DNA of 64,000 nt from an uncultured Stenotrophomonas sp. (lineage in GTDB: Bacteria; Pseudomonadota; Gammaproteobacteria; Xanthomonadales; Xanthomonadaceae). The stretch covers positions 124,001 to 188,000 of the forward strand of contig CAJYNG010000008.1 in NCBI GenBank assembly GCA_913775725.1, written 5' to 3'. The number at the start of each line of letters is the position of its first letter. The first letter of the stretch is position 1. The position numbers and the translations under genes were made by a program. The notes below the pieces were generated by a model that made no database searches, was not told where the DNA came from, and saw only the letters and a program-made list of their open reading frames with translations. This document shows positions 27,057 through 50,225 of this stretch, in pieces.

Positions 27057-27070
27057 ATGGGGTTCGCATC

Positions 27071-27085: not shown

Positions 27086-27112
27086 TTTGATACCCCGATG
27101 CCGGAGCCCCGC

Positions 27113-27442: not shown

Positions 27443-27471
27443 ACCCACTGTTGCATGCCCATTCAAGAGAA

Positions 27472-27509: not shown

Positions 27510-27596
27510 GGTGGCATCCGGTCCTGAGTGGCGCGGGTGCCGGGTGGGGCGTGCAGACGCGCCCGGCCAATCCTTTCCTGTTACGGCTGGTGTTTC

Positions 27597-28793
27597 ATGC
27601 ACGCACGTCCCGTCGTTCCCGGCTTGCCGGCGCTGGTGTTGGCTGCCCTGATCGGCACCATGGCGATGATGTCCTTCGTCGCCGTGATCGGTCCGGTGGT
27701 CCGCATGCTCGGTTTGTCCGAGTGGCATGCCGGGCTATCGGTCACCGCTGCAGGCGTGCTGTGGATGCTGGCCGCGCGCCCCTGGGGCCAGCTCAGCGAC
27801 CGCATCGGACGCAAGCGCGTACTGATGCTGGCGATGAGTGCCTACACCGTGGTCTACATCGCGCTGGCGGTGTTCATCGACGTCGCCCTGCAGGCAGTGC
27901 CGCCGGTGCTGGTGTCAGTGCTGGTGCTGGTCGGCGCGCGTGGCCTGATCGGCCTGTTCTACGCGGCGGTGCCTCCTACCGCAGCCGCGCTGATCGCCGA
28001 CAAGGCACCCACCGGACAGCGTGCGAAGTTCCTCGCCCGCCTGGGCAGCGCCAACGCACTGGGCATGGTGCTCGGTCCGGCCGCCGCGGGCTGGCTGGCC
28101 TATACGAACCTGTCGCTGGCGCTGTACGTGGCCGCGCTGCTGCCGTTGCTGGCACTGGCATTGCTGGCCTGGCGGCTGCCGGCTACACCGCCGGTGGTGG
28201 GCGCGTCCGCACAGCGCCGCACGCCGATGAGCCGCCTCGACGCGCGCCTGCGCCTGCCGCAGCTGGCAGCGTTCATTGCGATGGTCTCGGTGACCATCGC
28301 GCAGGTCACGGTTGGCTTCTTCGCGATTGATCGCCTGGGCCTGGATGCGGCTGCGGGGGCGCGCATGGCCGGCATTGCACTCACAGCGGTCGGCGTCGGC
28401 CTGATCCTGGCGCAGGCGCTGGTGATGAAGCTGGAGGTGCATCCACGCCGCTGGATCGTCCTCGGCGCCCTCATTTCCGGCATCGGCTTTGCTTCGGTGG
28501 CGGGCGTGCAGCAGGCCTGGCAGTTGCCGGCGGCGTATGCGTTGGCCGCGTTCGGCATGGGCTTCGTATTCCCCTCGTTCCAGGCGCTGGCCGCCGATGC
28601 GGTGGAGGCGCACGAGCAGGGCGCCGCCGCCGGCACCGTGGCGGCCGCGCAGGGGCTGGGCATGGTGGCCGGGCCGATGCTCGGCACGCTGTTGTATCGC
28701 GGCGGGCCCAGCCTGCCTTACCTGCTGGTCGGCGCACTGCTGTTGTTGCTGTGCGCGCTGGCCGCAGCGCATCGGATGAAGGAGACCCCATGA
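27597..28793 (+). CDS. MFS transporter, probable catecholate siderophore exporter
   Basis: Twelve-segment major facilitator of 398 residues in the inner membrane. The DHA1-type motif between segments 2 and 3 is RPWGQLSDRIGRKRVL, and GMVLGPAAAGWLAY in segment 5 is the drug/H+ antiporter motif C. It is the first gene of the siderophore operon and overlaps entC by ATGA, the place EntS-type exporters occupy elsewhere, so export of the finished siderophore is the likely task. The ATG at 27597 was chosen over an in-frame start at 27528 because the upstream 23 residues are hydrophilic and lie near the promoter. Confidence 0.87.
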   Translation: MHARPVVPGLPALVLAALIGTMAMMSFVAVIGPVVRMLGLSEWHAGLSVTAAGVLWMLAARPWGQLSDRIGRKRVLMLAMSAYTVVYIALAVFIDVALQAVPPVLVSVLVLVGARGLIGLFYAAVPPTAAALIADKAPTGQRAKFLARLGSANALGMVLGPAAAGWLAYTNLSLALYVAALLPLLALALLAWRLPATPPVVGASAQRRTPMSRLDARLRLPQLAAFIAMVSVTIAQVTVGFFAIDRLGLDAAAGARMAGIALTAVGVGLILAQALVMKLEVHPRRWIVLGALISGIGFASVAGVQQAWQLPAAYALAAFGMGFVFPSFQALAADAVEAHEQGAAAGTVAAAQGLGMVAGPMLGTLLYRGGPSLPYLLVGALLLLLCALAAAHRMKETP

Positions 28794-29983
28794 ACGATTC
28801 CCTGATGCAGGGCGCGTGGCCGGAGGCTGTGCCGGCACCGCTGGACAGCACCGACGACGGGTCGCTGTTCCTGCTGCAGCATGCCGGCCAGCACGTGCAC
28901 GCACGCGGCTGCCGCGCCGCGCTGCAGGCCGGTGCACTGGCGACATTGGCAGAACGCGTCTCGGAGTTCTTTGCCCAGCAGCGTGGTGGCCCGGGCCTGC
29001 TGGTTGGCGCGGTGCCGTTCGAACCGCGTGCGGACGATGCGCTGTACCAGCCCGAGCGCCTGCTGCCGGCGCTGGCACTGCAGCCGCAGGCCGCACCGCC
29101 GATGGACGGCGCCCTGCGGGCCGAGCCTGCGCCGCAGGACTATGCGTCAGCGGTTGCCGCGGCGGTGCAGGCCCTGCGTGCGCCCGAGCAGAACCTGCAC
29201 AAGGTGGTGCTGGCGCGCAGCCTGCTGGCGCGCACCCGCCAGGCGCTGTCCCCGGACGTGCTGCTGGCACGTCTGGGTGCGGATCCGTCGGTGGCGACCT
29301 ACGCGGTGCCGTTGCCGGTGGAGCTGGGCCAGGCGCCGGCGTGGCTGGTGGGGGCCACACCGGAACTGCTGTTGCGCAAGCGTGGCGCCGAACTGTTGTC
29401 TCATCCGCTGGCGGGCTCTGCGCGGCGCAGCGCCGATGCCGCCGAGGACGAGCGTGCGGCGCAGGCGTTGCTGGCCTCGACCAAGGACCACGACGAGCAC
29501 CGCCATGTGGTCGAGGCCATCGTCGAGGGCCTGGCGCCGTACTGCAGCCACATCGATGCGCAGCCGCGGCCGGTGCTGCATGCCACCGCCAGCATGTGGC
29601 ATCTGGGCACCCGCATCCACGCCACGCTGAAGGATCCGCAGACGTCTGCCGCCGAACTGCTGGCGCAGCTGCACCCCACGCCGGCGGTCTGCGGTACGCC
29701 GCGGCTGGCGGCGCTGCAGCGTATCCGGGAACTGGAACCGGTGCCGCGTGGCTTCTATGCCGGCGCCGTGGGTTGGTTGGACGCACAGGGTGACGGTGAC
29801 TGGTACGTGGCGATCCGCTGCGCGCGCCTGCAGGGCACGCAGCTGCGCCTGTACGCCGGTGCCGGCATCGTCGCCGAGTCGCAGCCCGAGGCCGAGGTGG
29901 CCGAAACCGCAGCGAAGTTCGCTGCCCTGTTGAACGCGCTGGGTGTCCATGAATCCGCGCCCGCCATCGAGCCTGCTGCATGA
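28790..29983 (+). CDS. entC: Isochorismate synthase
   Basis: Converts chorismate to isochorismate, the first step to 2,3-dihydroxybenzoate. The protein has 397 residues and the chorismate-binding fold: [17 protein letters not shown], then [20 protein letters not shown], and [38 protein letters not shown] and [13 protein letters not shown] are the signature C-terminal motifs, and [15 protein letters not shown] ends the active site. AAGGAG stands 5 bp before the ATG at 28790, which overlaps the MFS stop. The next gene overlaps by ATGA. Confidence 0.94.
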
Positions 29984-31632
29984 ACACTTCCACTGACGCT
30001 TCCCGCCTGCCATTGCAGCAGGTATGGCCGGATGACCTGATGGCGCGCTATCGCGAGGCTGGGCACTGGCGTGGCGAGACCTTCCCGGCGTTCCTGCGCG
30101 AGCGGGCGGAACGATTCGCCGATGACATCGCAGTGGTTGCCGGTGACGTGCGCCTGAGCTACGCGCAGCTGTGGCACGAGGCAGGCCGTATCGGCGCGGG
30201 CCTGCTGGCGCTCGGCCTGCAGCCCGGCGAACGGGTACTGGTGCAGCTGGGCAACACCGCAGGCTTCGTCACCACAGTCTGCGGCCTGTTCCGCGCCGGG
30301 CTGGTGCCGGTGTACGCGTTGCCGGCGCATCGCATCACCGAGCTCGTGCACTTTGCCAACAAGGCCGAAGCCAGTGCCTACATCACCACCGAACTGCACG
30401 ATGGCTTCGATCATCGCGGGCTGGCGCGGGCGCTGCAGGCCGAAGTGCCGGCCGTGCGCCATGTGGTGATCGACGGCGAGGCGGCGGAGTTCATCGCGCT
30501 GGACGCACTGCAGGGCGATCGCAGCCAGCTGCCGGCCGATCCGGACCCGCAGTCAGTGGCGTTCCTGCAGATTTCCGGTGGCAGTACCGGGCTGTCCAAG
30601 CTGATCCCGCGCACGCACGACGACTACATCTATTCGTTCCGTGCCAGCAATGATCTCTGCGGTATCGACCGCGACAGCGTCTACCTGGTCGCGCTGCCGG
30701 CTGCGCACAATTTCCCGATGAGTTCGCCGGGCTTCTTCGGCGCACTGTATGCCGGCGCCCGCGTGGTGCTCAGCCCCGGACCCGGGCCGGATGCGGCCTT
30801 CCCGCTGATCGCCCGTGAACAGGTGACCTGCTGCGGGCTGGTGCCGCCGCTGGCGTTGCTGTGGGCACAGGCCGCGGCTACGAGCAAGCATGACCTGTCC
30901 AGCCTGCAGGTATTGCAGGTAGGCGGCGCCAAACTGGTGCCGGAAGCCGCCCGGCGGGTGATCGACGGTCTTGGCTGCACGCTGCAGCAGGTGTTCGGCA
31001 TGGCCGAAGGCCTGGTCAACTACACGCGGCTGGATGATCCGGAGGAGCTGATCGTGGCCTGCCAGGGCCGGCCGATCAGTCCGGATGATGAAGTGCGCGT
31101 GGTTGATGACCATGACCAGCCGGTGGCCGAAGGCGAGGTGGGGCATCTGCTCACCCGTGGCCCGTACACCATCCGTGGCTACCACAACGATGCGGTGGCC
31201 AATGCGCGATCGTTCACCGACGACGGCTTCTATCGCACCGGCGACCGTGTGCAGCAGCTGCCCGGAGGCTACCTGGTGGTGCAAGGGCGTGCGGGTGACC
31301 ACATCAACCGCGCCGGCGAGAAGATCTCCGCCGAAGAGATTGAAGATCATCTGCTGGCCCATCCCGGCGTGTTCGACGCCGCCGTGGTCTCCATTCCCGA
31401 TGAGTATCTGGGTGAGCGCAGCTGCGCCTTCGTGATTCCGCAGGGCGAACCGTTCAAGGCGCCGGCTCTGAAATCCTGGATGCGCGGGCGCGGCCTGGCG
31501 GCGTTCAAGGTGCCGGATCAGATCGTGTTCGTCGACAGCTTCGATACCACCGCGGTCGGCAAGATCAGCCGCCGCGAACTGCGCGCGCAGCTGCGTGCGC
31601 GTCATCTGCAACAGACAGGAGGAACGCGCTGA
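29980..31632 (+). CDS. entE: 2,3-dihydroxybenzoate-AMP ligase
   Basis: Stand-alone adenylating enzyme of 550 residues that activates 2,3-dihydroxybenzoate with ATP and loads it on the aryl carrier protein. The P-loop-like motif is [20 protein letters not shown]. The aryl-acid pocket region is [15 protein letters not shown], as in EntE and DhbE. Later motifs are [28 protein letters not shown] and [20 protein letters not shown], and the catalytic Lys is in [11 protein letters not shown]. The ATGA overlap with entC and the TGATG overlap with entB show tight coupling. Confidence 0.96.
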
Positions 31633-32264
31633 TGGCGCTACCCCGTATCACCGACTACCCCTTGCCGACCGCCGCTGAACTCCCGCAGGCGCGTGGCCCG
31701 TGGCGCCCCCAGCGCGATCGCATTGCGCTGCTGGTGCACGACATGCAACGTTACTTCCTGGCCGCATTCGACGCTGGCAACGCGCCGCTGCGGCCGGCCG
31801 TGGACAATATCGCACGCTTGTTGGCGCATTGCCGCGCGCACGGCATTCCGGTGTTCTACACCGCCCAGCATGGCGACCAGGATCGCCGTGACCGTGGCCT
31901 GCAGGCCGACCTGTGGGGACCGGGCATGCGCCGCAGCGCCGATCACGAACCGATCATCGAGGCGCTGGCACCCCAGCCGGGCGAGCACGTGCTGGTGAAG
32001 CACCGCTACAGCGCGTTCCAGCGCAGCAACCTGGAGACGCTGATGCGGGTACGTGGGCGCGACCAGCTGCTGGTGACCGGCGTGTACGCCCATATCGGCT
32101 GCACCGCGACCGTGGTCGAGGCCTTCCAGCGTGATATCGAGGCCTTCATCGCCGCCGATGCGGTGGCGGACTTCTCGCGCGCCGATCACGATCAGGCACT
32201 GCATTGGATCGCACGAACCTGCGGAGTGCCGATGACCACCGACCAGCTGCTGGAGGTGCTGTGA
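31632..32264 (+). CDS. entB: Isochorismatase (EntB N-terminal type, no carrier domain)
   Basis: Hydrolyses isochorismate to 2,3-dihydro-2,3-dihydroxybenzoate. Only the isochorismatase domain is present (210 residues); the aryl carrier domain that E. coli EntB has at its C-terminus is a separate gene downstream. Motifs are RIALLVHDMQRYFLAAFD (catalytic Asp), GEHVLVKHRYSAFQRSNLE (catalytic Lys) and VTGVYAHIGCTATVVEAFQ. The last residues match E. coli EntB up to the point where its linker starts. It overlaps entE and entB' by 1-3 bp. Confidence 0.95.
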   Translation: MALPRITDYPLPTAAELPQARGPWRPQRDRIALLVHDMQRYFLAAFDAGNAPLRPAVDNIARLLAHCRAHGIPVFYTAQHGDQDRRDRGLQADLWGPGMRRSADHEPIIEALAPQPGEHVLVKHRYSAFQRSNLETLMRVRGRDQLLVTGVYAHIGCTATVVEAFQRDIEAFIAADAVADFSRADHDQALHWIARTCGVPMTTDQLLEVL

Positions 32265-32521
32265 TGGCTGCCACCGGTGAGGTGCTGGATCTGGAGCGGA
32301 TGCGTGCCGATGTGGCGCGCGTGCTGGAGTGCACACCGGCCGAGATCGGTGACGACGACAACCTGATCGACCTGGACCTGGATTCGATGCGCATGCTCGG
32401 CCTGGTCCTGGCCTGGGGCAACACCGGCCTGCCGCTGGAGTTCTCGCAGCTGGCCGAGCACACCACGCTGCGCCAGTGGTGGAACGTGGTGCAGCAACTG
32501 CAGGCCGCGCAGAACGCATGA
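32264..32521 (+). CDS. Stand-alone aryl carrier protein (EntB')
   Basis: Carrier protein of 85 residues that carries dihydroxybenzoate as a thioester for EntF. The phosphopantetheine attachment serine is in DLDLDSMRMLGLVL, and residues NLIDLDLDS form the usual loop before helix 2. In E. coli this domain is fused to EntB. Its first codon overlaps the entB stop (TGATG) and its stop overlaps entF (ATGA), so it is made in step with its partners. No 4'-phosphopantetheinyl transferase gene is nearby, so modification must be done by an enzyme encoded elsewhere. Confidence 0.92.
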   Translation: MAATGEVLDLERMRADVARVLECTPAEIGDDDNLIDLDLDSMRMLGLVLAWGNTGLPLEFSQLAEHTTLRQWWNVVQQLQAAQNA

Positions 32522-35500
32522 ACGCCGTCGCGCTGGCCACGTCGGTGGCGCTGACCGAGGCCCAGGCCGGACTGTGGTTCGCACAGCGGCTGGCACCGGA
32601 CAACCCGTCATTCAATACCGCGCACGCGGTGTGGATCGACGGCCCGCTGGACGTGGCCGCGTTCGTCGCAGCGGCAGACCAGGCCGCAGTTGAGGCAGAG
32701 GCCTTCGCGCTGCGCTTTGCCGAGGGTGCCGATGGCCAGCCCCTGCAGTGGCGCGATCCGGCACATGTGCCACGGGTTTCGGTACGTGATGTTTCCACCG
32801 AGGCGGATCCCGCCGCTGCGGCGCTTAGCCTCATGCAAGCCGACCGGCTGAGCCCGGTGGATCCCACCCGCGACCGGATCAGCCTGCAGTTGCTGCTTGA
32901 TCTGGGTGGGCAGCGCTGGGTCTGGTACCTGCGTGTGCATCACCTGGCGGCCGATGGATACGGCATGGCGCTGTTCACTGATCGCGTGTGCGCGTTGTAT
33001 GCCGGTCGTACCGGTGAGTCACTGCCGGGGCTGGCGGGCGTGCTGGCCGATGATGCCGCTTATCGTGCCGACCCGCGCCGCACGCAGGCCGGGCAGTGGT
33101 GGCGCGAGCACATGCAGGGGGCACCGGCGGGCGTCGGCTTGGCCGGTACGCTCGCGGCCAGTGACGACGCGCTGCGCTGGGTGCAGCCGCTCGATGCGGC
33201 CTTCCGTGAGCAGTTGCTGCAGGCATCGGTACGTTGGTTGCAGGCCTGGCCGGACGTGCTGGCCGCGTTGTCGGCCGAGTACCTCCGGCGGATGAGCGCG
33301 GCCGATGAAGTGGTGCTGGGCGTGCCCTACATGGGCCGGCTCGGCAACGCGTCGGCGCGGGTACCTGCGATGGTGATGAATGTGTTGCCGCTGCGTGTGG
33401 CGGCCGGCGAGGGCAGCGTCGAAACCTTTACCCGCAGCCTGGGCCGGCAGCTCAGCCAGGGTCGCAAGCACGGCCGTTACCGCGGCGAGCAACTGCGCCG
33501 GGACCTGGGCCTGGTGGGGGCGCAGCAGCGCCTGCACGGTCCCATGGTGAATGTGCAGCCGTTCTACAAGCCGCTGGCGCTGACGGGCGTGCAGGCGACG
33601 CTGGAGGTGCTGTGCACCGGGCCGGTGGATGACCTGACGCTGGGCTTCCGTGGCGATGGCCAGAGTCTGCTGGATCTTGAGGTCGAAGCCAATCCCGCGC
33701 TGTACAGCCGCGAGGATGTCGAGGCGCACGCGGCGCGGTTGCTGCATTTCGTGTCGGCGGCACTGCAGGCTGAGGATATCGCAGCCGTACCTCTGGCGAC
33801 GCCCGGGGAGGCGCAGCAGGTGCTGCAGGACTTCAATGCCACCGCGCACGCGCTGCCGCAGACGACCCTGGTCGAGCTGCTGCAGCAGGGCATGGATCGG
33901 GATCCGCACGCGCCAGCGCTGGTGTTCGGCGACACTACGCTGGACTACGCAACGCTGGAAGCGCGCAGTTTCGCGCTGGCGGCACAGCTGCGGGCGATGG
34001 ATGTCGGCCCGGGCAGCGTGGTGGCGGTGGCGTTGCCGCGCTCGCTGGAGCTGGTGATCGCGCTGCTGGCGGTGCTGCGTGCCGGAGCCGCCTACCTGCC
34101 GTTGGACCTTGCCCATCCGGACGAGCGGCTGGCACGTATTCTCGCCTCGGCACAGCCGGTGTGCGTGCTGGCTGCGGCGGACGTCTCGGCGCGTATGGCC
34201 GATGTGCCGGTGCTTGCGCCGGAGCAGTGGACTGCGCTGAGTTTCGCCGCGCCATGGGCCGATCCTGCGCCCAGCGATGCGGCTTATGTGATCTATACCT
34301 CCGGTTCGACCGGCGAACCGAAGGGCGTGGTCGTCGAACATCGTGCCATCGTCAACCGCCTGCTGTGGATGCGCGAGCACTACGGCATCCGTGCCGACGA
34401 CCGCGTGCTGCAGAAGACCCCGGCCACCTTCGATGTCTCGGTCTGGGAATTCTTCCTGCCGCTGCTGTGCGGGGCCACGCTGGTGGTCGCCGGGCCCGAT
34501 GCACACCGCGATCCCTCTGAACTGGCGCGCTTGATCCGTGGGCATGGCATCACCACGGCGCATTTCGTGCCGTCGATGCTCGATGCCTTCCTGGCTGCGC
34601 CGGCCTCGGCGGGGCTGCAGCTGCGCCGGGTATTCACCAGTGGCGAAGCGCTGGATGCCGCGTTGCGCGACCGCTTCCACGCGCGTGTGCACGCAGAACT
34701 GCATAACCTGTATGGCCCGACCGAAGCTGCGGTGGATGTCAGCTACTGGCCGGCGTCGGCGCAGGATCGTTCGCGGCCGGTGCCGATCGGGTTCCCGGTC
34801 TGGAATACCCGCCTGTACGTGCTGGACGCCCGGATGCAGCCGGTGCCGGTCGGTGTGGCCGGTGACCTGTACCTGGGCGGGGTGCAGCTGGCACGCGGCT
34901 ACCTCGGTCGCGATGATCTCACTGCGGAGCGCTTTCTCGCGGATCCTTTCCTGCCGGGCGAGCGCATCTACCGCACCGGTGATGTGGCGCGCTGGCGCCA
35001 CGATGGTGCCGTTGAGTATCTCGGCCGCAGTGACCATCAGGTAAAACTGCGCGGCCTGCGTATCGAGCTGGGCGAGATCGAGGCGGCACTGCGCGAGCTG
35101 CCTGGCATGGAGCGCGTGGAAGTGCTGCTGCGCCAGGACGCGCCCGGCGATGCCCGGTTGGTGGCCTATGTGCCAGCGGCGCTTGCCGATGCCGTAACGC
35201 TGCGCAGCCACCTGGCCACGCGCGTGCCGGACTATATGGTGCCCTCGGCATTCGTCGGCGTGGACTACTGGCCGGTGACCGCCAACGGCAAGCTCGACCG
35301 CAACGCGTTGCCGAAGCCACCGCAGCATGAGGTCGCTGGATTGGCACCGCGCACGCCGTTGGAACAGGAGCTGGCGTTCCTGTTCGCACAGGCGCTTGGG
35401 CGTGAGGTGCCGGTGGCGGTGGATGCGGATTTCTTCAGTCTCGGCGGTGACTCGCTGTCGGCGGTGCACCTGCTGCTGGCGATCGAACAGCGCTGGCGCT

Positions 35501-36408
35501 GTGATCTGGGTCTGGGTGCCTTGTTTGCGCAGCCCACCGTGGCCGCACTGGCGGTACGCATTGCCGAGCCACCCGCGCTGGCCGATCACGCGCTGGGACC
35601 GGTGATCGCATTGGCCGCAACCGACGCTGCCGGGCCCTCGCCGCTGTTCGTGCTGCATCCGGCCGGTGGCATCGCCTGGAACTACCGCACCCTGGCCCGG
35701 GCACTGCAGCCGGCACGCCCGGTGTACGGCCTGCAGTCGCCGGCACTGGACGCGCGGCAGCCGCTGCCGGGCAGCATCGAGGCGATGGCCAACGACTACG
35801 TGCAGCGCGTGGTCGCATTGCAGCCGAAGGGGCCGGTGCATCTGCTGGGCTGGTCGGTGGGTGGCATCCTCGCCCAGGCGATGGCGGTGCGCCTGCATGA
35901 GATCGGCCGCGACGTCGGCGAGCTGGTGCTCCTCGACGCCTATCCCAGCGAGTGCTGGCGGGCCGAGCCGGAACCCGATGCCATCGCCGCATTGCGGGCA
36001 CTGCTGGCGATTGCCGGCCACGATCCGGATGCGCATCCGGAACTGGACAGTCGCGAACGCATTCTGGCGTTCCTGCGACGTGGCGGCAGTGCACTTGGCA
36101 GCCTGCCGGATGTGGTGCTCGATGGCGTGGTGCGCGCGGTGACCGGCACCAATCGACTGATCCGCGAACATGTTCATCAACCGTTCGACGGCACGCTGGT
36201 GCACGTGCGTGCGGGCCAGGATCATCAGGCGCGGCCGCAGCTGCAGTCGGCGTTGTGGCGGACCCATGCGCGCAAGGTGCAGGCGCTGGAACTGCCGTTC
36301 CTGCACGCCGAACTGACCGGCCGCGATGCGGTGGCGCAGCTGGCGCCATGGTTGTCGGCGCGGCTGCGCCAATGGGACGAGCAACAGGAGATCGCAACAT
36401 GCAGTTGA
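32518..36408 (+). CDS. entF: Non-ribosomal peptide synthetase EntF (C-A-PCP-TE)
   Basis: Module of 1296 residues that condenses dihydroxybenzoate with an amino acid and releases the product. Condensation domain: active site HHLAADG at residue ~141. Adenylation domain from ~450: [17 protein letters not shown] at ~592, and the pocket [27 protein letters not shown] and [11 protein letters not shown]. Read in the standard order this gives the code D-V-W-H-F-S-L-V-D, as in E. coli EntF, so the substrate should be L-serine. Carrier: [16 protein letters not shown] (Ser ~979). Thioesterase: [10 protein letters not shown] (~1111) with a C-terminal catalytic His near 1262. Overall length and order match E. 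coli EntF. Confidence 0.95.
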
Positions 36409-37157
36409 CCGGTTTTGAAGGCCGCGTGGCATTGGTGACCGGTGCCTCCGGTGGCATCGGCGAGGCACTGGTACGGCTGTTGGTCGAGGCCGGGTGCACC
36501 GTGGTGGCGACTGATCGCGAGGCGCCGCGCGTGGCCGATACCCGGGTGACGTCGCTCGCACTCGACGTGACTGACAGTGCGGCTGTGGACGCGCTGGTGG
36601 ACCGGGTAGAGTCCAGCATCGGGCCAATCGCGCTGGCCGCCAACGTGGCCGGGGTGCTGCATGTGGGTGGCGTGACCGAGACCACCGACGACGACTGGCG
36701 TCGGGTATTCGCGGTCAACGCCGATGGCGTATTCCATGTCGGGCGTGCACTGGCACGGGTGATGTCGCCGCGCGGGCAGGGCGCGATGGTTACCGTCAGC
36801 TCGAATGCGGCCGGCGTGCCGCGGCATGGCATGGCCGCCTACGCGGCATCCAAGGCCGCCGCCACGATGTTCACCCGCTGCCTCGGGCTGGAACTGGCGC
36901 CGCTGGGCATCCGCTGCAACATCGTCGCCCCGGGATCGACGCTGACCCCGATGCAGACCGGCATGTGGCAGGACGAACACGGTGCCGAGCGGGTGATTGC
37001 CGGCAACCTGGCGACCTACAAGGCCGGCATTCCACTGCGCAAGCTGGCCACCCCGGAAGACATCGCCCATTCGGTGATGTTCCTGCTCTCCGAGCAGGCC
37101 GGACATGTGGCGATGAGCGACCTGTATGTGGATGGCGGCGCCACCCTTCGCGGCTGA
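36399..37157 (+). CDS. entA: 2,3-dihydro-2,3-dihydroxybenzoate dehydrogenase
   Basis: NAD-dependent short-chain dehydrogenase of 252 residues that completes 2,3-dihydroxybenzoate. The nucleotide loop is [15 protein letters not shown], the catalytic Tyr/Lys pair is in [13 protein letters not shown], and [10 protein letters not shown] is the usual NNAG-type strand. The C-terminus is [12 protein letters not shown]. It begins inside the 3' end of entF (10-bp overlap) with CAGGAG 7 bp upstream. It is the last gene of the operon and is followed by a SMAG element. The product pathway (with entC and entB) is inferred from the operon. Confidence 0.95.
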
Positions 37158-37163
37158 GCTTCC

Positions 37164-37223
37164 GTAGAGCCGAGCCCACGCTCGGCTGAGGGCGAAGGCA
37201 GCCGAGCATGGGCTCGGCTCTAC
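37164..37223. repeat. SMAG palindromic repeat after entA
   Basis: GTAGAGCCGAGCCCACGCTCGGC and GCAGCCGAGCATGGGCTCGGCTCTAC, bounded by GTAG and CTAC. It separates the convergent entA and phytase-like esterase genes. Confidence 0.85.
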
Positions 37224-37247
37224 AGAGAGCGTGGCATCGGTTTGCGG

Positions 37248-38705
37248 TCAGGGCAGGGTCAGGCGGTACACCAGCACGCGGTTGTCGTTGTCGTAGGCAC
37301 TGTCGCAGGCCTGGCCCTGCATGCGGCAATGGCGGGCGATGAAGTCGTTGTCGTTGCCGATCAGCAGCAGTACGTCGTTCGGGTGCTGCGGGTCCAGCGC
37401 CGGCAGCACGTCCATGGCTTCCCACTTTTCCGAGAGCAGTCCGGTATGTGGGCCGCGCTTCGTGTCCAGGTCCAGCCCGGCACGCGCAAGCTGCGGGCGG
37501 TCGAGCAGGTTCAGCAGTTCGTCGCTGCGGGCGGGCATGATCTCCGGCTTCAGCGCGGTGCCGGTCGGGTCGGCCAGAACCGAGGCCGTGCCGGTTTCAT
37601 AAGTACTTCCGGCCAGGTTGGTGGCGTCGGCCACATCGACCAGCAGCACCGACTTGTAGACGATCGGGTCATCGCCGTCCTTGCCCAGCCCGTTGCCATC
37701 GCGGGCCAGCAGCAGGAAGCGATGGTCGTCCAGCGCACGCAGCTCGCTCTGCGCGGCGGTGCGGTCCAGCTTTCCCTTGCCGTCGTGCGCGTAGGCGGGC
37801 AGGGCCATCACGTAATGGCCGATCGGCTGCTGTGGCGTCGGCAAGGCCGTCACGTCGTAGACCAGTACGCGGGTGTTGATGCGGCCCGCCGCGTTGCCCT
37901 GCGCGCTGTCCTGCAGCGTGGCGCTCTGCAGGGCGACGAACAGGCGAGTGCCGTCGGGTGACAGGCCCATGCCTTCCACGCCCTGGTTGTTGCGTCGGCC
38001 GGTCTGCGGTGGTGCCAGTGAACCGAACGCCGGTTTGCCTTCGCGCTGCGGACGGATCGCAGGCGGTGCCACGATCACACCCTGCAGCTGACCCTGCGCA
38101 TCGAAGTAGTAGACGTTGGCGGTGTACTCGTCGCCGACGTAGAAGTGGCCATCAGCGGTGAACTGCAGCGACTCGGCATCCAGCGAGACCTTGCCTGCGC
38201 CTGCGCCGCTGGCCGGCGAGGGCAGCACCACCTCGCGCTGGGTGACCGTGTGGTCACCCGGGTCGGCACCGGTGAACGGCTGCCCGTTGAAATCCTTCAG
38301 TACCACGCCCTCGTCGGGCACCATCGTCAGCGTGCCAAGCTCGGGCTTGCCCGGGGAAACGTCGATGCGCAGCTGCATGCGCTCCACGCGCCCGGTGTAG
38401 TCGTAGAACAGGCCGGCCTCGGGATCGTTGCGGCCGCGGTCGGGCAGCGTCCACAGCACGCCCTCATAACCGCTGGCGGTGCGCTTCCAGGTGCCGGGCT
38501 GCACCGCCAGCGACGAGAACGATCCCAGCGTGTCGCCCAGGAAGTCCACCGTGCCCGCCGGCAGCCGCCCGGCGGCGACCAGGCCCTTGTCCACATAGGT
38601 ACGACCGCCCACCTGCAGGGTGCGTGGCGGTGCGCCAGCGGCCTCGTGCGGAGCGGAGTGTCCGCTGGCGGAGAGGGTGGCCAGCAGCAGGGCGGTCGCG
38701 AGCAT
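37248..38705 (-). CDS. Exported phytase-like esterase
   Basis: Periplasmic or extracellular beta-propeller protein of 485 residues. The signal peptide is residues 1-18 (ATALLLATLSASGHSAP). Landmarks of the 'esterase-like activity of phytase' family are visible: GTVDFLGDTLGSFSSLAV, LWTLPDRGRNDPEAGLFYDY, LDAESLQFTADGHFYVGDEY, GVEGMGLSPDGTRLFVALQS and LLARDGNGLGKDGDD. It lies 20 bp after a TonB receptor gene on the same strand and so is probably co-transcribed. A phosphate-ester substrate is suggested by the family name only. No activity can be claimed from sequence alone. Confidence 0.85.
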   Translation of the reverse strand: MLATALLLATLSASGHSAPHEAAGAPPRTLQVGGRTYVDKGLVAAGRLPAGTVDFLGDTLGSFSSLAVQPGTWKRTASGYEGVLWTLPDRGRNDPEAGLFYDYTGRVERMQLRIDVSPGKPELGTLTMVPDEGVVLKDFNGQPFTGADPGDHTVTQREVVLPSPASGAGAGKVSLDAESLQFTADGHFYVGDEYTANVYYFDAQGQLQGVIVAPPAIRPQREGKPAFGSLAPPQTGRRNNQGVEGMGLSPDGTRLFVALQSATLQDSAQGNAAGRINTRVLVYDVTALPTPQQPIGHYVMALPAYAHDGKGKLDRTAAQSELRALDDHRFLLLARDGNGLGKDGDDPIVYKSVLLVDVADATNLAGSTYETGTASVLADPTGTALKPEIMPARSDELLNLLDRPQLARAGLDLDTKRGPHTGLLSEKWEAMDVLPALDPQHPNDVLLLIGNDNDFIARHCRMQGQACDSAYDNDNRVLVYRLTLP

Positions 38706-38725
38706 CGGTGGACTCCGGGGGTCGA

Positions 38726-41044
38726 TCAGAAGCGAAGGTCGATCGTACCGAACACCTGGCGCGGTGCCGAGGCGTGGAACACGTACAGCTTGCCGGCCGG
38801 GTCACTGGGTGCGAACACGCTCGAATCCAGGTTGCTGGCGTAGCGCTTGTTGGTCAGGTTGGTCACGTTGAACGACAGGCGCATGCCCTTGGCGAAGCCG
38901 ACCTGGCCGAAGTCATAGCCGCCGGCCAGATCGAACACGGTAAAGCCGCCGAAGCCCTGGTCGTTGGTGTAGGTGTAGAAGCGTTCGCCGGTGTACTTGC
39001 CGCGCAGGCTGGCGAACCAGCCGTTGTCACGCCAGGTGATCTCGGTGGCCAGCAGCTGCTTGGGTGTATCGGTCTGGATCTTGCCCTTGATCTGCTGCTC
39101 GACACCGGCCTGCATGTAGTTGGAGGCGTAGGTCGAACGGTTCAGCGAGGCCGTGGTGTACCAGCTGAAGTGCTCGTTCGGGGTCCACAGCACGGTCAGC
39201 TCGGCGCCGCGGCTGTCGACGCCGCCCACGTTGTAGAAGCGGTTGCCACAGGTCGGGCCGACCGGCTGGCGCGAGTCACAGGGGTTGTACTGCAGCAGGC
39301 GGTTGTCGAAGCGCACGCTGTAGGCGGCGATCGAGGCCTGCAGGGTATCGGTGACGAAGCGGTAGCCGGCTTCCAGCGAGCGCGATTCCTCCGGCTTCAG
39401 GTTGCCCTGCGCATTCCAGGTGGCCTGGCTGACCGCCTGCGGGCCCAGCTTGAAACCGCCCTGGAACATGGCGATGTTCTCGGCGTAGCTGGCGAAGATC
39501 TCGTGGTGCTCGGCCAGGCGGAAGTTGGCGCCGATGCTGGGCAGGAAGTTCTTGCTGGCCTTCAACGAACCGGTGGCGAACTGGTTGTTCGAGGTCGGCG
39601 AGATCGGCGTCTTCGCGTCGCCGGGCAGTGCTTGTGCATCGGAGGTGGCATGCGGGCTCTTGGCGCCGAACTCCAGCGTCAGGCGATCATCAAGCAGGCG
39701 CCAGGTGTCTTTCAGGAAGAACTGATGGGTCTTCCAGCGCGTGCGCTGGGCGAACACGCCGACGTCGGAGGGCAGGGTGTTCATGCCACTCAGGTCGCGC
39801 GGGCCATCCACGGCGGTCTGGTAGCGCTCGGCACTGCTGGTGTTGCGCTCGTACCAGACGCCGCCTTCGATGCGATGTGCGCCCAGCTCCCAGTCGAACG
39901 ACAGCGTGCCGCCATCGCGGTCGATGGTGTAGATGGTGTTGCGGAAGATGATCGGGATCTCCTGCGCCGTGCCCTTGTTCGACCATGCGCCGCTGTTCCA
40001 GTTGTGGCCTTCGCCGCGGTCATCGTGGTGGTAGGCCAGGGCGCGCAGGCTGAAGCCATCGGCCAGGAAGAAATCGCCGGCCAGATAGTAGAGGTTGTCA
40101 TCGCGCAGGATCTGCCCGGCGGTGAAGGCACCATCGGCATCCTTGTCCGGGCCGCTGTTGTCGCACTTCTTCGCGTTGAGGCTGGCGGTATTGCAGTAAG
40201 CCTTGGCCACGGCCTTGTTCCAGTCCGGCGCATAGCCGCCCCAGTCCCAGCCGAGGCCGCGCGACATCTCGTCCTTGGACAGGTAGAAGTAGTCAGCCTG
40301 CGTGGTCCGCGAGGTATCGACGAAACCGGTGATCTGGCCGCGGCCGAAGTTCCACACGCCCTTGGCATTGAACTGCTTGGTGGTGGACTTGTTGTAGGCG
40401 GTCTGGTCGTTCCACAGATCGGAGACGGCATTCATGCCGGAGACGTAGCCGGAGAAGCCGTTGTACTCGCCGCTGTCCACGCGCACGAAAGTGCGACGAT
40501 TGGCATCGCTGCCGAAGGTCTGCACCACGCGGCCACCGAGTTCCTGGGCCGGGCGGTCGGAGGTGTACGAGATGGTGCCGCCGAGGTTGCTGGTGGACGG
40601 CGTGCCGAGGCTGCCGATGCCTACCGCCAGTTCCGCACCGGCCATGTTCTCGCTGATCAGCGCGCGGTTGATGGTCAGTCCGTTGTAGTTGTTGTACGCA
40701 CCGTCGCCCAGTGGCACGCCGTCCAGCGTGTAGCCGAGGCGGGTGGAGTTGAAGCCGCGCAGGCTGAGCGTCATCGACTGCTCGTTGGTGCCCAGTGCGT
40801 CGGCCGACTGTGCATTGACGCCCGGCAGCAGGTTCAGAGTCTTCTGCAGGCTGGTACCCGGCGGCAGGATATCGAGGTTCTCGCGGGTGATGCGCTGCAC
40901 CTGGCGCGCTTCACCGCTGCCGATCACCGAGACCGCATCGAGGGTGGTGGCGGAGGGCGTGCTGGAGGTCGGGGCAGCGTCCTGCGCCCAGGCCGCGGGA
41001 GCGAGCGCGATCGACAGCGCGGCAGCCAACAAAGTCTTCGTCAT
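38726..41044 (-). CDS. TonB-dependent receptor, probably phosphate-regulated
   Basis: Outer-membrane transporter of 772 residues. The signal peptide is residues 1-21 (LLAAALSIALAPAAWAQ). The plug has RITRENLDILPPGTSLQKTL, SLRGFNSTRLGYTLDGVPLG and GTPSTSNLGGTISYTSDRP. The barrel ends QVFGTIDLRF. The N-terminal extension of 79 codons upstream of the ATG at 41044 is promoter-like sequence and is excluded. It is followed 20 bp later by the phytase-like esterase. The upstream region holds a candidate Pho box, so import of a phosphorus-containing or metal-phosphate compound is a reasonable hypothesis. Confidence 0.9.
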   Translation of the reverse strand: MTKTLLAAALSIALAPAAWAQDAAPTSSTPSATTLDAVSVIGSGEARQVQRITRENLDILPPGTSLQKTLNLLPGVNAQSADALGTNEQSMTLSLRGFNSTRLGYTLDGVPLGDGAYNNYNGLTINRALISENMAGAELAVGIGSLGTPSTSNLGGTISYTSDRPAQELGGRVVQTFGSDANRRTFVRVDSGEYNGFSGYVSGMNAVSDLWNDQTAYNKSTTKQFNAKGVWNFGRGQITGFVDTSRTTQADYFYLSKDEMSRGLGWDWGGYAPDWNKAVAKAYCNTASLNAKKCDNSGPDKDADGAFTAGQILRDDNLYYLAGDFFLADGFSLRALAYHHDDRGEGHNWNSGAWSNKGTAQEIPIIFRNTIYTIDRDGGTLSFDWELGAHRIEGGVWYERNTSSAERYQTAVDGPRDLSGMNTLPSDVGVFAQRTRWKTHQFFLKDTWRLLDDRLTLEFGAKSPHATSDAQALPGDAKTPISPTSNNQFATGSLKASKNFLPSIGANFRLAEHHEIFASYAENIAMFQGGFKLGPQAVSQATWNAQGNLKPEESRSLEAGYRFVTDTLQASIAAYSVRFDNRLLQYNPCDSRQPVGPTCGNRFYNVGGVDSRGAELTVLWTPNEHFSWYTTASLNRSTYASNYMQAGVEQQIKGKIQTDTPKQLLATEITWRDNGWFASLRGKYTGERFYTYTNDQGFGGFTVFDLAGGYDFGQVGFAKGMRLSFNVTNLTNKRYASNLDSSVFAPSDPAGKLYVFHASAPRQVFGTIDLRF

Positions 41045-41328: not shown

Positions 41329-41706
41329 TCAACCCGTGTTGCGCGGCTTGCGCGTGCGCTTCGGCTTTGCGGTATCACCGCCGCTGGCGGCGCCATCCTG
41401 CAGCGCCTGCAGCCAGGACAGGGTGTCCACGTAGTCGATGAAATGGCGCAGGTAACCTGGGCTGGTGGCCTGCATCGTGTCCAGCATGCGTTGCACCAGC
41501 ACCGCCGAGTTCAGCGGGCCGCCATCGGCGGGAGCCTCGGTGCGCAGCGAGCGGCGCACCTGCAGTTCGCTGCGCAGCTCGGACCACTCGCGCTGCACCT
41601 GCTGCAGCATTGGCACCTGCGGGTAATGCGGCAGCGAGCGCGACCCCGCATCGAGGTCGCGCACCAGTGCGCGCAGGCCCTCCAGGGCTGGCGGCTTACT
41701 TGGCAT
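41329..41706 (-). CDS. DUF2894 protein, fourth gene of motor-like operon
   Basis: Protein of 125 residues without signal peptide or membrane segment. It has a helical body (ALEGLRALVRDLDAGSRSL, REWSELRSELQVRRSL, VLVQRMLDTMQATSPGYLRH) and a basic, lysine-rich tail (AKPKRTRKPRNTG). The motif FIDYVDTLSWLQAL near residue 95 matches what I know of DUF2894 proteins, which occur beside OmpA-like and DUF802 genes. It begins 11 bp before the OmpA-like stop. Its function is unknown. The basic tail hints at a nucleic-acid or membrane-lipid contact. Confidence 0.8.
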   Translation of the reverse strand: MPSKPPALEGLRALVRDLDAGSRSLPHYPQVPMLQQVQREWSELRSELQVRRSLRTEAPADGGPLNSAVLVQRMLDTMQATSPGYLRHFIDYVDTLSWLQALQDGAASGGDTAKPKRTRKPRNTG

Positions 41707-42334
41707 CCGCGGCCTTGGGCTTGGAAATCGGCGCGATCTCCACGCGACGGTTGCGTGCGCGGCCGTCTTCGCTTGCATTGGAACTGACCGGCTGCTCGCT
41801 GCCGAACGCGGCGGCGAACACGGCGTCGGCCGGTACGCCATCGGCGATCAGGGTGCGGGTCACGGTCAGCGATCGTTGTGCCGACAGCTCCCAGTTGTCG
41901 GCGAAGCGGCGGTTGCCTTCGCGCACCGGTGCGTCATCGGTGAAGCCGCTGACCATCAGGATCTCTTCGCGCGTGCCCAGATAGGCGGCCAGCGGCGCAG
42001 CCAGGCTGCGCAGCAGCTCCTGGCCTTCCGGCTGCAACTGGTCGGAGTTCAGCGCGAACAGCACGCTGCCGCTGATGCCGATGCGGCCATCGACCAGCGT
42101 CACCCGGCCGGCAGCCAGCGGGCCGGCCAGCGCCTGTTCCAGGGTCTGCAGGCGCTTGGCTTCGGCCTGGCGCTGCTTCACTTCCTGGTCTAGCCGTTGC
42201 GAAAGCTCCAGCTGCACGGCAACCACGCCGACCAGGATCAGCACGAACGCGCCCAGCAGCACCGACATCAGGTCGCCGAAGGCGGCCCAGATCGGGGCGT
42301 GTGAGCCGCCGTCGACCTCCAGCTCGTCGCTCAT
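41696..42334 (-). CDS. MotB/ZorB-like stator protein with OmpA peptidoglycan-binding domain
   Basis: Inner-membrane protein of 212 residues with one N-terminal membrane segment and a periplasmic OmpA-like domain. The segment WAAFGDLMSVLLGAFVLILV (residues 16-35) places D21 exactly where MotB and ZorB carry the ion-binding aspartate (AYADFM-type motif). The OmpA_C domain has LMVSGFTDDAPV, NWELSAQRSLTVTRTL and ASEDGRARNRRVEI, including the peptidoglycan-contact Asp and Arg. It overlaps the MotA/TolQ-like gene by ATGA. The pair predicts a proton- or sodium-driven motor anchored to the cell wall. Confidence 0.9.
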   Translation of the reverse strand: MSDELEVDGGSHAPIWAAFGDLMSVLLGAFVLILVGVVAVQLELSQRLDQEVKQRQAEAKRLQTLEQALAGPLAAGRVTLVDGRIGISGSVLFALNSDQLQPEGQELLRSLAAPLAAYLGTREEILMVSGFTDDAPVREGNRRFADNWELSAQRSLTVTRTLIADGVPADAVFAAAFGSEQPVSSNASEDGRARNRRVEIAPISKPKAADAK

Positions 42335-44595
42335 GCGCTACCGGCCTTGCCGCGGCGCGTGGCCAGCTGCTGCAGTTCTTCCATTACCTGCTTCTGCGAC
42401 AGTAGGCTGAGGTCAACCACCTCGCGCGCCTGCGCCACGTAGTAGGCCAGCTGTTCGTCGCTGCGGGCCAGCGAGGCATCCAGAGCACCGCCAATCTGTT
42501 CCAGGCGGCCGGACAGCTCGGTGGAGGCGCTGCCGAACTGTGCGACCGCTTCACCAAAGGTGCCGGCCAGCTGGCCGACGTCACCGGCGCTGCCGTTGAG
42601 CGCTGCGGCAATGCCATCCAGCTTCCCGGTCTCGGCGGCGATATGGTCGGTGAAGCGGTTGCCGACGCGTTCCAGCAGCTCGGCGGAGCCGCCGACCAGC
42701 GCGTCCACGGCGGTGCGCTGCTCGTGCGAAGCATGATTGATCGCGTCGAGCAGGGTCTGCACGGTGGCCAGCAGGCGACCGCGCTCTTCCAGCATTGCGT
42801 TGTCGCGCACCAGGCTTTCGGACAGGGTGCTGCGCAGTTCGTTGATGACGTCGGCCGCGGCCTTCGGCGCGGCGGCAGCGGTCTGCAGCAGGGTGGACAC
42901 TTCGGCCAGCGTGGCGCTGGCCTGTGCACGACCGTTCTCGCCGATCTGCTGTGCGGTCGCCGCCAGCGTGTCGCAGACCTGCTGCTGCTGCGCAGCCAGG
43001 CGCTCGCCGTTGGCCTGCAGGCGCTCGGCCAGGTCGGTGGAAACGTGCTGCAAGGCATCGCTCCAGCGCTGCAGGCGCTGTTCGTCGCCGGTCTGCAGCT
43101 GTGCCTGCAGCGTGGCGTGGGCCTGCTGCAGCTCGGCGCTGACCGCGTCCCAGTGCGCTTGGCGCTGCTGCTCGCGGCTGTCCAGGCTGGCCTGCAGTTT
43201 GGCATGCGCGGTCGCAGTAGCGGCCTGCGCGGCCTGCCAATCCTGCAAGCGCTGCTGTTCGTGGTCCTGCAGCAGCGACTGGCTGGCGCTGTGGCGCTGC
43301 TCCAGTGCCTGCAGCAGCGCCTGCGCGTGCTCGTCCAGCTGCTGACCGGCTGCGAGCAGCGCCTGCTGCTGGCGCTCGACCAGCGCGCTGTTCAGGGCCT
43401 GCTGCTGTTCAGCGGCAGCACGCAAGGCCTCCGCATTGTCCTGTGCATCGGCCTGCAGGCGCTCCCCGATACGCGCGACCAGCGCTTCGGCCTGCGTGCC
43501 CTGGCCATCGCTGAAAGCCTGCAGGTGCTGGCGCAGATCGCCCACCAGTGCCTGCTGTGCCTGGGTTTGCTCACTCACCACCTTGGCCCAGCTGGCCTCG
43601 GTTGCAACGCGGCTGCGCTCGAAACCGTCGCTCAGGCCAGCCAGTTGCTGCTGCACGGCCTGCTCGACGCGGGCGTGCAGTGCTTCGCCGTGACGGGCCA
43701 GGCCAGCCAGGGTGGTCTCGGCCATCGGCTGCAGCGCGCCACCGATGGCGGCGGCGCTGGCTTCAGCCCCTTCGCGCAGTGATTGCTGCAGCGAGACCGC
43801 CAGGCGTTCCTGCAGGGCCTGGCTCTGGGTCAGGAACTCGGCCTGGCCCGCCAGCAGGCGTTCATTGGCAGCCGCACTGTGCTGTTCGAACGCGCTGGTC
43901 ATCGCCTGCAGGCGGTCGACCAGCGCCGGCAGTGCAGTGGACTGTGCCTGCAGCAGGCGCAGCGATTCGGCGCGCTGCCAGGTCTGCGAGTACGGATGCA
44001 GGTCGCCGGCAATGGCGCGGTCCAGCTGCTGTACGGCCTGCAGGCGGTCACGACGCAGCAGCGCTGCCAGCAGGCCGAGCATGGCCGAGCTGGCCACACC
44101 GGCAATCGAGGTGCCGAATGCCACCGCCAGGCCCTGTACCGGTGAGGCCAGCGAGCCGCGGATGGCGGCCATGTCGGTCGCGCTCTGCAGGGCCAGGCCG
44201 GTGCCGCGCAGCGTGTCCATCATGCCCAGCAGGGTGCCGAGCATGCCCAGCAGCACCAGCAGGCCAACCAGGTACGGGGTCAGCACCGGTGCGGGCAGGG
44301 CGGTGCGCTCGCCTTCCACGCGCAGGCGCACGGCGTTGCGCAGGCCCACTGGCACGCGCTCCAGCCAGGGGGCGAGGCTTTCCTTCGCGCTGGACAGGTC
44401 GTTCAGTGCGCTGCGCAGGCCGTTGCTGGCCTGGCGGTAGCGGTACAGCTCCACGCCACCGGCGATGTAGCAGGCCGCGATGATCGCCGCCACCGCTGCA
44501 CCCAACGGATGCACCGAAACGTAGCCAATGCCGATCCAGCACACGGCCAGCAGGCCGACAAGGAAAACAACGACATGGAAAGCAGTTCTGGACAT
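42331..44595 (-). CDS. DUF802 protein: MotA/TolQ/ZorA-like channel with long helical tail
   Basis: Membrane protein of 754 residues. Four membrane segments: residues 5-26, 31-50, 105-127 and 152-180. Segments 3 and 4 (LVLLGMLGTLLGMMDTLRGT and PVQGLAVAFGTSIAGVASSA) carry the GxxGTxxG...T and S/AxGLxxAxxxT patterns of the MotA/TolQ/ExbB proton-channel family. Residues ~185-754 are a soluble, Gln/Ala-rich, heptad-like coiled coil with repeated blocks (ALVERQQQALLAAGQQLDEH). ZorA proteins have the same layout. Start ATG 44595 was chosen over an in-frame 47-residue hydrophilic extension. Confidence 0.87.
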   Translation of the reverse strand: MSRTAFHVVVFLVGLLAVCWIGIGYVSVHPLGAAVAAIIAACYIAGGVELYRYRQASNGLRSALNDLSSAKESLAPWLERVPVGLRNAVRLRVEGERTALPAPVLTPYLVGLLVLLGMLGTLLGMMDTLRGTGLALQSATDMAAIRGSLASPVQGLAVAFGTSIAGVASSAMLGLLAALLRRDRLQAVQQLDRAIAGDLHPYSQTWQRAESLRLLQAQSTALPALVDRLQAMTSAFEQHSAAANERLLAGQAEFLTQSQALQERLAVSLQQSLREGAEASAAAIGGALQPMAETTLAGLARHGEALHARVEQAVQQQLAGLSDGFERSRVATEASWAKVVSEQTQAQQALVGDLRQHLQAFSDGQGTQAEALVARIGERLQADAQDNAEALRAAAEQQQALNSALVERQQQALLAAGQQLDEHAQALLQALEQRHSASQSLLQDHEQQRLQDWQAAQAATATAHAKLQASLDSREQQRQAHWDAVSAELQQAHATLQAQLQTGDEQRLQRWSDALQHVSTDLAERLQANGERLAAQQQQVCDTLAATAQQIGENGRAQASATLAEVSTLLQTAAAAPKAAADVINELRSTLSESLVRDNAMLEERGRLLATVQTLLDAINHASHEQRTAVDALVGGSAELLERVGNRFTDHIAAETGKLDGIAAALNGSAGDVGQLAGTFGEAVAQFGSASTELSGRLEQIGGALDASLARSDEQLAYYVAQAREVVDLSLLSQKQVMEELQQLATRRGKAGSA

Positions 44596-44605
44596 GGTGT
44601 TCCGG

Positions 44606-45259
44606 TCAGTGGGAGCGCAGGGCGTCTTGCAGCCCTTCGATCGGGTGGAAGCGCAGCTGCAGCTCGGCGAGCAGCAGCGTGCGCATGTCATGGCGGAAGG
44701 CCGTGCGCCAGCCGGGCTGGCCGTGTACGCGTTCAAATCGGGCGCCGAGCACTGCCGGCGCAGTGGCCAGCAGGCTGTGCTCGCGCGGGGTGAGGGTCTG
44801 TTCCATCACCGCATCGACCTCGGCCAGCCTTGCGAGCTCCGGCGAAACCTGCACCAGCTGGTCGCGCAGGCGGCCGCGCAGGCGCCCGGTGGCGGTCTGG
44901 ATGGCCTGCTGCAGTACCCGGTAGCGCTGGCGCAGCGAGGCGAAGTTGGGTGCAGCGGCAGCTTCGGCCAGGTCCAGCAGGCGCTCGGCCTCGGCATCCT
45001 CACGGATCGAGGCCAGCAGGCTGGCGTGCGCCTGGGCGCAGTCAGCCAATACATCCTCGGCCGCTTCAGTGGTCTCACCCGGTTCGGGTAGGCGTCCGCC
45101 GAGCGCCCCGGACAGGGCCACGGCACGGCTCCAGTCCACCCACTGGCCGAGGCGATCGGTCAGGGCGGGACTGGTGGCCGGCATCGCGCCGTCGCTGAGA
45201 CGGGCGAGCAGGCGGAGGAACTCCGGTCCACCCAGGACCGGCTGCGCTGCGTTCGCCAT
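44606..45259 (-). CDS. DUF3348 protein, first gene of motor-like operon
   Basis: Soluble protein of 217 residues, helical and acidic. It fits DUF3348: LGGPEFLRLLARLSDGA at the start, GQWVDWSRAVALSGALGG, then a helical middle (LRQRYRVLQQAIQTATGRLR) and the end HDMRTLLLAELQLRFHPIEG. It has no catalytic motif that I recognise. It precedes the DUF802 gene by 10 bp, so the four genes form one transcription unit. In other beta/gammaproteobacteria this family is commonly found next to the same partners (my general knowledge, not checked here). ATG 45259 is preferred over TTG 45277. Confidence 0.8.
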   Translation of the reverse strand: MANAAQPVLGGPEFLRLLARLSDGAMPATSPALTDRLGQWVDWSRAVALSGALGGRLPEPGETTEAAEDVLADCAQAHASLLASIREDAEAERLLDLAEAAAAPNFASLRQRYRVLQQAIQTATGRLRGRLRDQLVQVSPELARLAEVDAVMEQTLTPREHSLLATAPAVLGARFERVHGQPGWRTAFRHDMRTLLLAELQLRFHPIEGLQDALRSH

Positions 45260-49490: not shown

Positions 49491-50225
49491 CTATTCGCGA
49501 TGGTCGGCGCTGCCGGCTTTCCAGTAGCCCATGGCGCTGAGCCGCCGTCGATCGATTGCATGCTCCTTCTTTAAATGAAGGCGCAGCGCGCGCACGGACG
49601 TTGATTCGCCGGCGATCCAGACATAGCCCGGGCCAAGAGGAAGCGAGAGGTTCAATACGGCGTGCTGCAATGAGAGGCCCGGACTGGCTCCCTCCTCGAT
49701 CCAGTTGACCAGGACGCCGGAAGGGGCCTCGATCGGTTGCCGGTCCGCCGCCGAAGGAATCTCCACGTAGGCACGCACATCGATGCCATTGGGCAGGGTC
49801 GCGGCAATGGCCTGCATCGCCGGAAGCGCCGTCGCATCGCCGGCCAGAATCACCCAGCGCGCATCCTCGGGCAAAGCCCACTCACCGCTGCGAGGGCCGG
49901 CAATGCCAATCTCATCGCCGATCCTGGCCTGCTCGGCCCAGCTGGAGAGTGGTCCGGTTGCGTTGCCGTGGCCGTGGAGAACGAAGTCCAGGTCGATTTC
50001 AGCCTGCTGTCGATCGATACGCCGGAGCGTGTAAGCGCGCCCTTCGCCGGTCGGCAGGAACACTTTCACCCATGCGGCCGGATGCTCGACGCCCGGGGTC
50101 ATCAGGAATGCCGCAGCGCCTGGCCCGGTTACCGTGATCCGCCGCATATGGGGCGTGAGCGCTTCAATCGACTTCACCTGGACGGTGAACAGTTCCGCGT
50201 GTTTTGAGTTCGTGTGACGGGTCAT
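49491..50225 (-). CDS. Siderophore-interacting protein (FAD-dependent ferric-chelate reductase)
   Basis: Cytoplasmic flavoprotein of 244 residues in the ViuB/SIP family, which reduces ferric siderophores to release iron. The FAD motif RAYTLRRID is the family R-x-Y-T-x-R, with WAEQARIGDEIGIAGPRSG in the next loop. The nucleotide region is RWVILAGDATALPAMQAI, and the C-terminal YVWIAGESTSVRALRLHLKKE and RRLSAMGYWKAG are typical SIP. The start at 50225 has only an ATG and no clear Shine-Dalgarno. No TonB receptor for a siderophore is adjacent. It heads the operon with TetR and MFS. Confidence 0.87.
   Translation of the reverse strand: MTRHTNSKHAELFTVQVKSIEALTPHMRRITVTGPGAAAFLMTPGVEHPAAWVKVFLPTGEGRAYTLRRIDRQQAEIDLDFVLHGHGNATGPLSSWAEQARIGDEIGIAGPRSGEWALPEDARWVILAGDATALPAMQAIAATLPNGIDVRAYVEIPSAADRQPIEAPSGVLVNWIEEGASPGLSLQHAVLNLSLPLGPGYVWIAGESTSVRALRLHLKKEHAIDRRRLSAMGYWKAGSADHRE

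Follow-up and report, generated by a model that had tools for sequence, protein, structure and literature searches.

The window, by which we mean the whole stretch of 64,000 nucleotides analyzed here, carries on its minus strand a cluster of four genes running from 45259 down to 41329, which by open reading frames and Pfam matches come in the order DUF3348, a ZorA-like gene (DUF802/MotA-like), an OmpA/ZorB-like gene and DUF2894. The genes are tightly packed, with 10 bp between DUF3348 and zorA, a 4-bp overlap of zorA and zorB and an 11-bp overlap of zorB and DUF2894, and the original prediction for this DNA was correct both in the coordinates of the cluster and in describing its genes as overlapping or 10 bp apart. 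The features of the cluster are as follows.

44606..45259, minus strand: DUF3348 protein, 217 aa (PF11828, 7.8e-59; PADLOC PDLC00658, 4e-77; both on the 223-aa open reading frame)
42331..44595, minus strand: ZorA (type III), 754 aa, MotA/TolQ-like core and DUF802-containing tail (PADLOC ZorA3, 1088 bits)
43966..44595, minus strand: motor region of ZorA, residues 1-210, with four TM-like segments; residues 101-175 are the most conserved
42346..42870, minus strand: end part of the ZorA tail, about residues 576-750, from conservation and gaps scored block by block across 40 sequences
41696..42334, minus strand: ZorB (type III), 212 aa, one TM segment and an OmpA-like domain (PADLOC ZorB3, 380 bits; PF00691, 2.9e-18)
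41329..41706, minus strand: DUF2894 protein, 125 aa, ATG at 41706, basic C-terminal tail (PF11445, 2.4e-25; PADLOC PDLC00654, 2.5e-72; both on the 170-aa open reading frame)

The order of the four genes was surveyed in two sets of loci. The first set consisted of 40 loci selected by a DUF3348 match, 20 from the genus of the window and 20 from other genera of its family, with the window's own locus as one of them, and the four-gene order was present in all 40. In the second set, made of 80 named loci selected by ZorB (the best 80 of 547 confirmed matches), the order was found in 75; the contigs of the remaining five start 2.9 kb or less before zorB, and DUF3348 therefore probably lies off the contig in these. 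Since the same order is repeated at 40/40 and 75/80 loci, the gene set is not a chance association. When the neighbouring open reading frames were clustered, the DUF3348 cluster covered 33 of the 40 loci because the gene caller was a crude one, and the gene-order survey found DUF3348 at every locus. The ZorB sequences closest to that of the window among the best 80 of 547 matches are 98-99% identical to it and come from S. maltophilia-group records, which points to a Stenotrophomonas origin of the window. One further record, titled Bacillus subtilis SK7B5 (JAHREJ010000010.1), holds a Stenotrophomonas-like Zorya III locus and looks mislabelled or contaminated.

All four proteins were matched by the type III profiles of PADLOC, with 1088 bits for ZorA3 (spanning residues 45-800 of the 801-aa open reading frame), 380 bits for ZorB3, 240 bits for the DUF2894 component and 258 bits for the DUF3348 component, and the type I and type II models gave only weak matches for ZorA and ZorB of the window. 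The locus thus holds every gene by which Zorya III is recognised, namely a tailed ZorA, a ZorB with its Asp and OmpA domain, DUF3348 and DUF2894, with zorAB flanked by both DUF genes. This gene set is already known, having been named and tested in 2021. In the part of Payne et al. 2021 (PMC8565338) that deals with it, Zorya type III is defined as ZorAB together with DUF3348 (ZorF) and DUF2894 (ZorG), 6,401 gene pairs (zorBC in the printed text) with flanking DUF3348 and DUF2894 are given, and the operon of Stenotrophomonas nitritireducens DSM 12575 is described as lowering phage plaquing and protecting cultures when placed in E. coli BL21-AI. The same definition is restated in the relevant section of Mariano et al. 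2025 (PMC11890865), where Stenotrophomonas is counted among the main carriers. The names of the two partners clash between sources, as DUF3348 is ZorF and DUF2894 is ZorG in the sections of these two papers concerned, and in PADLOC-DB 2.0 they are ZorG3 (window 44606-45259) and ZorF3 (window 41329-41841), respectively.

The original prediction had pictured a Zorya-like motor with unknown partners that could be an undescribed system. Its statement that DUF3348 and DUF2894 take the place of ZorC, ZorD and ZorE agrees with the PADLOC identity of the flanking genes, but its two claims of novelty were not borne out: both partners are named components of Zorya III, and the same gene set, with PADLOC matches for all four members, is the published system. 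A new defence system was accordingly rejected as a candidate, the gene set being identical to that of Zorya III. Zorya I was rejected on the grounds that zorAB is flanked by DUF3348 and DUF2894 and that no ZorC or ZorD match occurs in the 20 of 24 flanking genes that were scanned between 26070 and 56813; searched genome-wide, the ZorC1 model matched none of the 91 genomes of the genus, a search in which the positive control gave no signal either. Zorya II was rejected as PADLOC placed no ZorE beside zorAB, in the operon or in those 20 of 24 flanking genes, and the single ZorE2 model used gave no match in the window's genome and, in seven of the 91 genomes, nothing beyond short partial matches that reached 33.2 bits at best.

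In comparison with the Zorya III of S. nitritireducens DSM 12575, the locus has the same four families, the same by profile matches, and likewise a Stenotrophomonas host. It differs in its DUF2894, which is without the N-terminal half that most relatives possess. The likeness to Zorya I and II (ZorAB-CD and ZorAB-E in the part of PMC11890865 on the system types) lies in the ZorA/ZorB motor, the long ZorA tail, the ion-binding Asp of ZorB and its wall-binding domain. Unlike in these types, the motor genes of the window are accompanied not by ZorC, ZorD or ZorE but by DUF3348 and DUF2894, which are without a recognised nuclease. We conclude that the locus is very probably a complete Zorya type III anti-phage system, for which phage protection is published for the Stenotrophomonas relative and predicted for the copy in the window.

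The distribution of the system was examined in 91 genomes from the genus of the window, each species being represented once. ZorB3 was detected (E below 1e-100) in 88 of them and was missing from G016 and G021, which are 99-100% complete, and from G071, which is 76% complete. DUF3348 was found in 87 of the 91, the additional gap being G030, where ZorB is 2.1 kb from the contig start and DUF3348 is for this reason probably off the contig. Outside the genus, DUF3348 was present in 20 of 20 genomes of another genus of the family, in 70 of 198 genomes and 18 of 54 genera of a family-wide draw, in 26 of 100 genomes of a second family (one per genus) and in 8 of 369 genomes of a class-wide draw. The motor protein had no match in 50,697 phage records and was present in 27 of 72,556 plasmid records, every one of these replicons being at least 366 kb in size, with hosts belonging to Caballeronia, Paraburkholderia, Burkholderia, Cupriavidus, Variovorax, Azoarcus and Aquabacterium. 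Within the genus the operon has the character of a resident locus of the chromosome that is close to core, rather than that of a mobile-island gene.

The entire PADLOC library was run on the surroundings of the operon, covering 30 neighbours, i.e. the 20 of 24 predicted flanking genes between 26070 and 56813 mentioned above and 10 of the 24 genes listed for six other loci. The defence-island setting that had been raised with the original prediction found no support, as no convincing defence gene is among these 30, and a defence island was rejected, the sole match being a partial one of 38.9 bits to a luciferase-like oxidoreductase. Among the 40 loci, members of one subclade tend to share their neighbours, and different subclades tend to have different ones. 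Those of the window include an NRPS/siderophore-type cluster, a TonB receptor, an AstE/M14-like enzyme and a diacylglycerol kinase. The siderophore-type region around the operon (26070-41044 and 49491-50225) comprises a luciferase-like enzyme, an AMP ligase, an NRPS, a short-chain dehydrogenase, a TonB receptor and a siderophore-interacting protein, and the NRPS cluster is common to 6 of the 40 loci. Further along, an open frame of 1589 aa with a signal-like start occupies 57575-62344 of the window.

Inheritance was analyzed by comparing ZorAB and rpoB trees of 29 genomes. The window's genome is missing from this comparison because no rpoB match was found in its assembly (scored 99.8% complete), perhaps owing to an assembly gap. 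The two trees have 13 of 26 splits in common, against at most two in 500 label shuffles, and one split, present in both, sets apart 12 species of the genus. The correlation of ZorAB and rpoB distances is weak (Mantel r 0.17, with 109 of 999 permutations as high), and eight of the 18 rpoB splits with support of at least 90 are contradicted by equally supported ZorAB splits; some transfer or uneven rates must therefore be allowed. All four genes are under purifying selection, the median dN/dS among 11 close loci being 0.086 for DUF3348, 0.097 for ZorA, 0.046 for ZorB and 0.066 for DUF2894, with 0.072 for a neighbouring enzyme gene.

Near-core presence, the absence of a defence island and the lack of a match in phage records are unusual for a defence system, and they lead to the chief alternative, in which Stenotrophomonas, Xanthomonas and many beta-proteobacteria have the operon as a resident core motor that serves mainly in the upkeep of the envelope or the chromosome, the protection seen in E. 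coli being a side effect of over-expression or of a response to wall damage. Such a motor would fit the counts of 88/91 for ZorB3 in the genus and 20/20 for DUF3348 in another genus, the dN/dS range of 0.046-0.097 that resembles that of the non-defence neighbour, the want of a convincing defence match in the 30 neighbours scanned, the phage and plasmid record counts (none, and 27 of 72,556 on replicons of at least 366 kb) and partners in which Pfam recognises no nuclease. It is opposed by the plaquing and culture protection that PMC8565338 describes for the relative in its account of the operon, and by the dispensability of the operon, which is lacking in three genomes of the genus, including two that are 99-100% complete, and in most genera drawn from the family (18 of 54 positive). 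Moreover, conserved defence systems do exist: the type III Zorya of R. solanacearum is presented as a highly conserved defence system in a 2026 review that includes a survey of its own (PMC13064858), so that the core status of the system is partly in print. Against the defence reading, a study of infection in B. cenocepacia saw a change in no more than the first one or two genes of Zorya III, which its authors do not list among the systems that they considered transcriptionally active. Taken as a whole we regard the housekeeping motor as unlikely, and the reading as a Zorya III defence system is retained.

The ZorA-ZorB design put forward in the original prediction was borne out by the strong ZorA3 and ZorB3 matches and by matches to the PDB chains 8vvn_C and 8vvn_B, and its particulars, i.e. 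four TM segments, a tail of about 570 residues and an ion-binding Asp at position 21 in WAAFGDLM of ZorB, all proved right by hydropathy and alignments. In Pfam the 801-aa open reading frame of ZorA gave DUF802 (PF05650, 1.7e-6) and MotA_ExbB (PF01618, 3.4e-4), the latter with 20.8 bits against a cut-off of 22.9. Hydropathy places the TM-like stretches of ZorA at residues 7-27, 29-43, 107-121 and 164-173, after which the tail follows. The motor region has a mean column identity of 80% in 23 sequences. In the tail, aligned from 40 sequences, a spacer of variable length at about residues 401-475 comes before the conserved end part, of which the blocks 576-650 and 701-750 are well conserved and the block 651-700 less so. 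A profile of the 23 motor regions was searched against 177,635 PDB sequences and yielded a single significant chain, 8vvn_C, a type I ZorA of Shewanella, with a modest match (1.9e-5, 27 bits).

ZorB was matched by NCBIfam NF006547 with 376 bits, and its OmpA-like peptidoglycan-binding domain extends over residues 92-196. In the PDB it matched MotB/OmpA domains widely, and its TM region was also covered in 8vvn_B (1.2e-5) and in 8qyd_F (8.3e-6), a chain of what we take to be the E. coli ZorAB entry. The Asp is kept at all 40 loci of the same family (the window's included), in 26 of 26 aligned sequences and in all 80 named loci (the best 80 of 547), where 79 fit the motif F[GA]DL[MW] and one reads FSDLM. 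It is extremely improbable that the operon encodes just a flagellar MotAB stator or a transporter motor of the TolQR/ExbBD type, for although the pair has MotA-like TM3 and TM4, a MotB-like Asp and an OmpA domain in common with flagellar MotAB stators, and ZorB gives MotB-like and OmpA-like matches and ZorA a weak MotA_ExbB match, it departs from those stators in the long cytoplasmic tail of about 570 residues and in its partner genes, its ZorA3 and ZorB3 matches are strong, DUF3348 and DUF2894 keep it constant company, and the flagellar MotB models of NCBIfam are all below cut-off among the matches listed (25 of 38).

The two partners of the Zorya III motor were analyzed by structure prediction, domain search and divergence. 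The AF2 model of DUF3348 is an all-helical plain bundle (pLDDT 87, pTM 0.82), and the model of DUF2894 is poor (pTM 0.42). The DUF2894 protein has a basic C-terminal tail that is conserved in 46 of 46 sequences. A nuclease domain was sought in both proteins by Pfam and found in neither. The short DUF2894 without the N-terminal half is seen in the window's lineage, and some other lineages, e.g. L223 and L213, also look short. With ZorB and the motor held constant, the divergence of DUF3348 follows that of the ZorA tail, with a partial r of 0.60 for the end part and 0.62 for the middle (0 of 999 permutations in each case), and a second comparison points in the same direction. DUF3348 also follows the ZorA motor, with a partial r of 0.61 given rpoB and 0.47 given ZorB and the tail end. 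Within ZorA, the tail is the part that it follows most closely. The divergence of DUF2894 tracks ZorB more than it tracks the end of the ZorA tail.

On this material a mechanism can be proposed for the Zorya III of the window. By analogy with types I and II, five copies of ZorA and two of ZorB would be expected to assemble in the inner membrane into a rotary motor driven by ions, with Asp21 of ZorB probably carrying the ion. When a phage disturbs the envelope, the OmpA domain of ZorB may grip the cell wall, a binding and sensing role modelled on types I and II, and rotation, again as in those types, would then move the long cytoplasmic tail of ZorA. The all-helical DUF3348 may dock on this tail, with the conserved end part as the likeliest site, and DUF2894 could, via its basic tail, meet nucleic acid or recruit something that does. 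We rate these last two steps, docking by DUF3348 and nucleic-acid contact by DUF2894, as about equally likely to be right or wrong. The basis for docking is correlational and unspecific, judging from sequence divergence, as the middle of the tail is tracked as much as its end and the motor is tracked too, and the DNA-contact step is weak because DUF2894 follows ZorB over the tail end and its model is poor.

According to Mariano et al. 2025 (PMC11890865), recruitment of a nuclease is the presumed mode of action of types I and II, and the partners of type III are without a recognised one. We found no paper in the openly licensed literature that is devoted to the mechanism of Zorya III, and the conserved end of the ZorA tail together with its rate-tracking with DUF3348 gives a concrete docking prediction. 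In its widest form the proposal would make Zorya III a resident, largely vertical and nuclease-free core motor of Stenotrophomonas, Xanthomonas and their relatives, in which wall-sensed rotation of the ZorA tail acts through a helical DUF3348 adaptor bound to it and through DUF2894 with its basic tail, and whose native task goes beyond phage defence or is other than it, and this we put forward as a tentative and rather doubtful idea. Among the points added here is the near-core status of the system in the genus, i.e. nearly every species examined carries Zorya III, and such status in two genera raises, for the native hosts, the question of whether the Zorya motor serves only defence.
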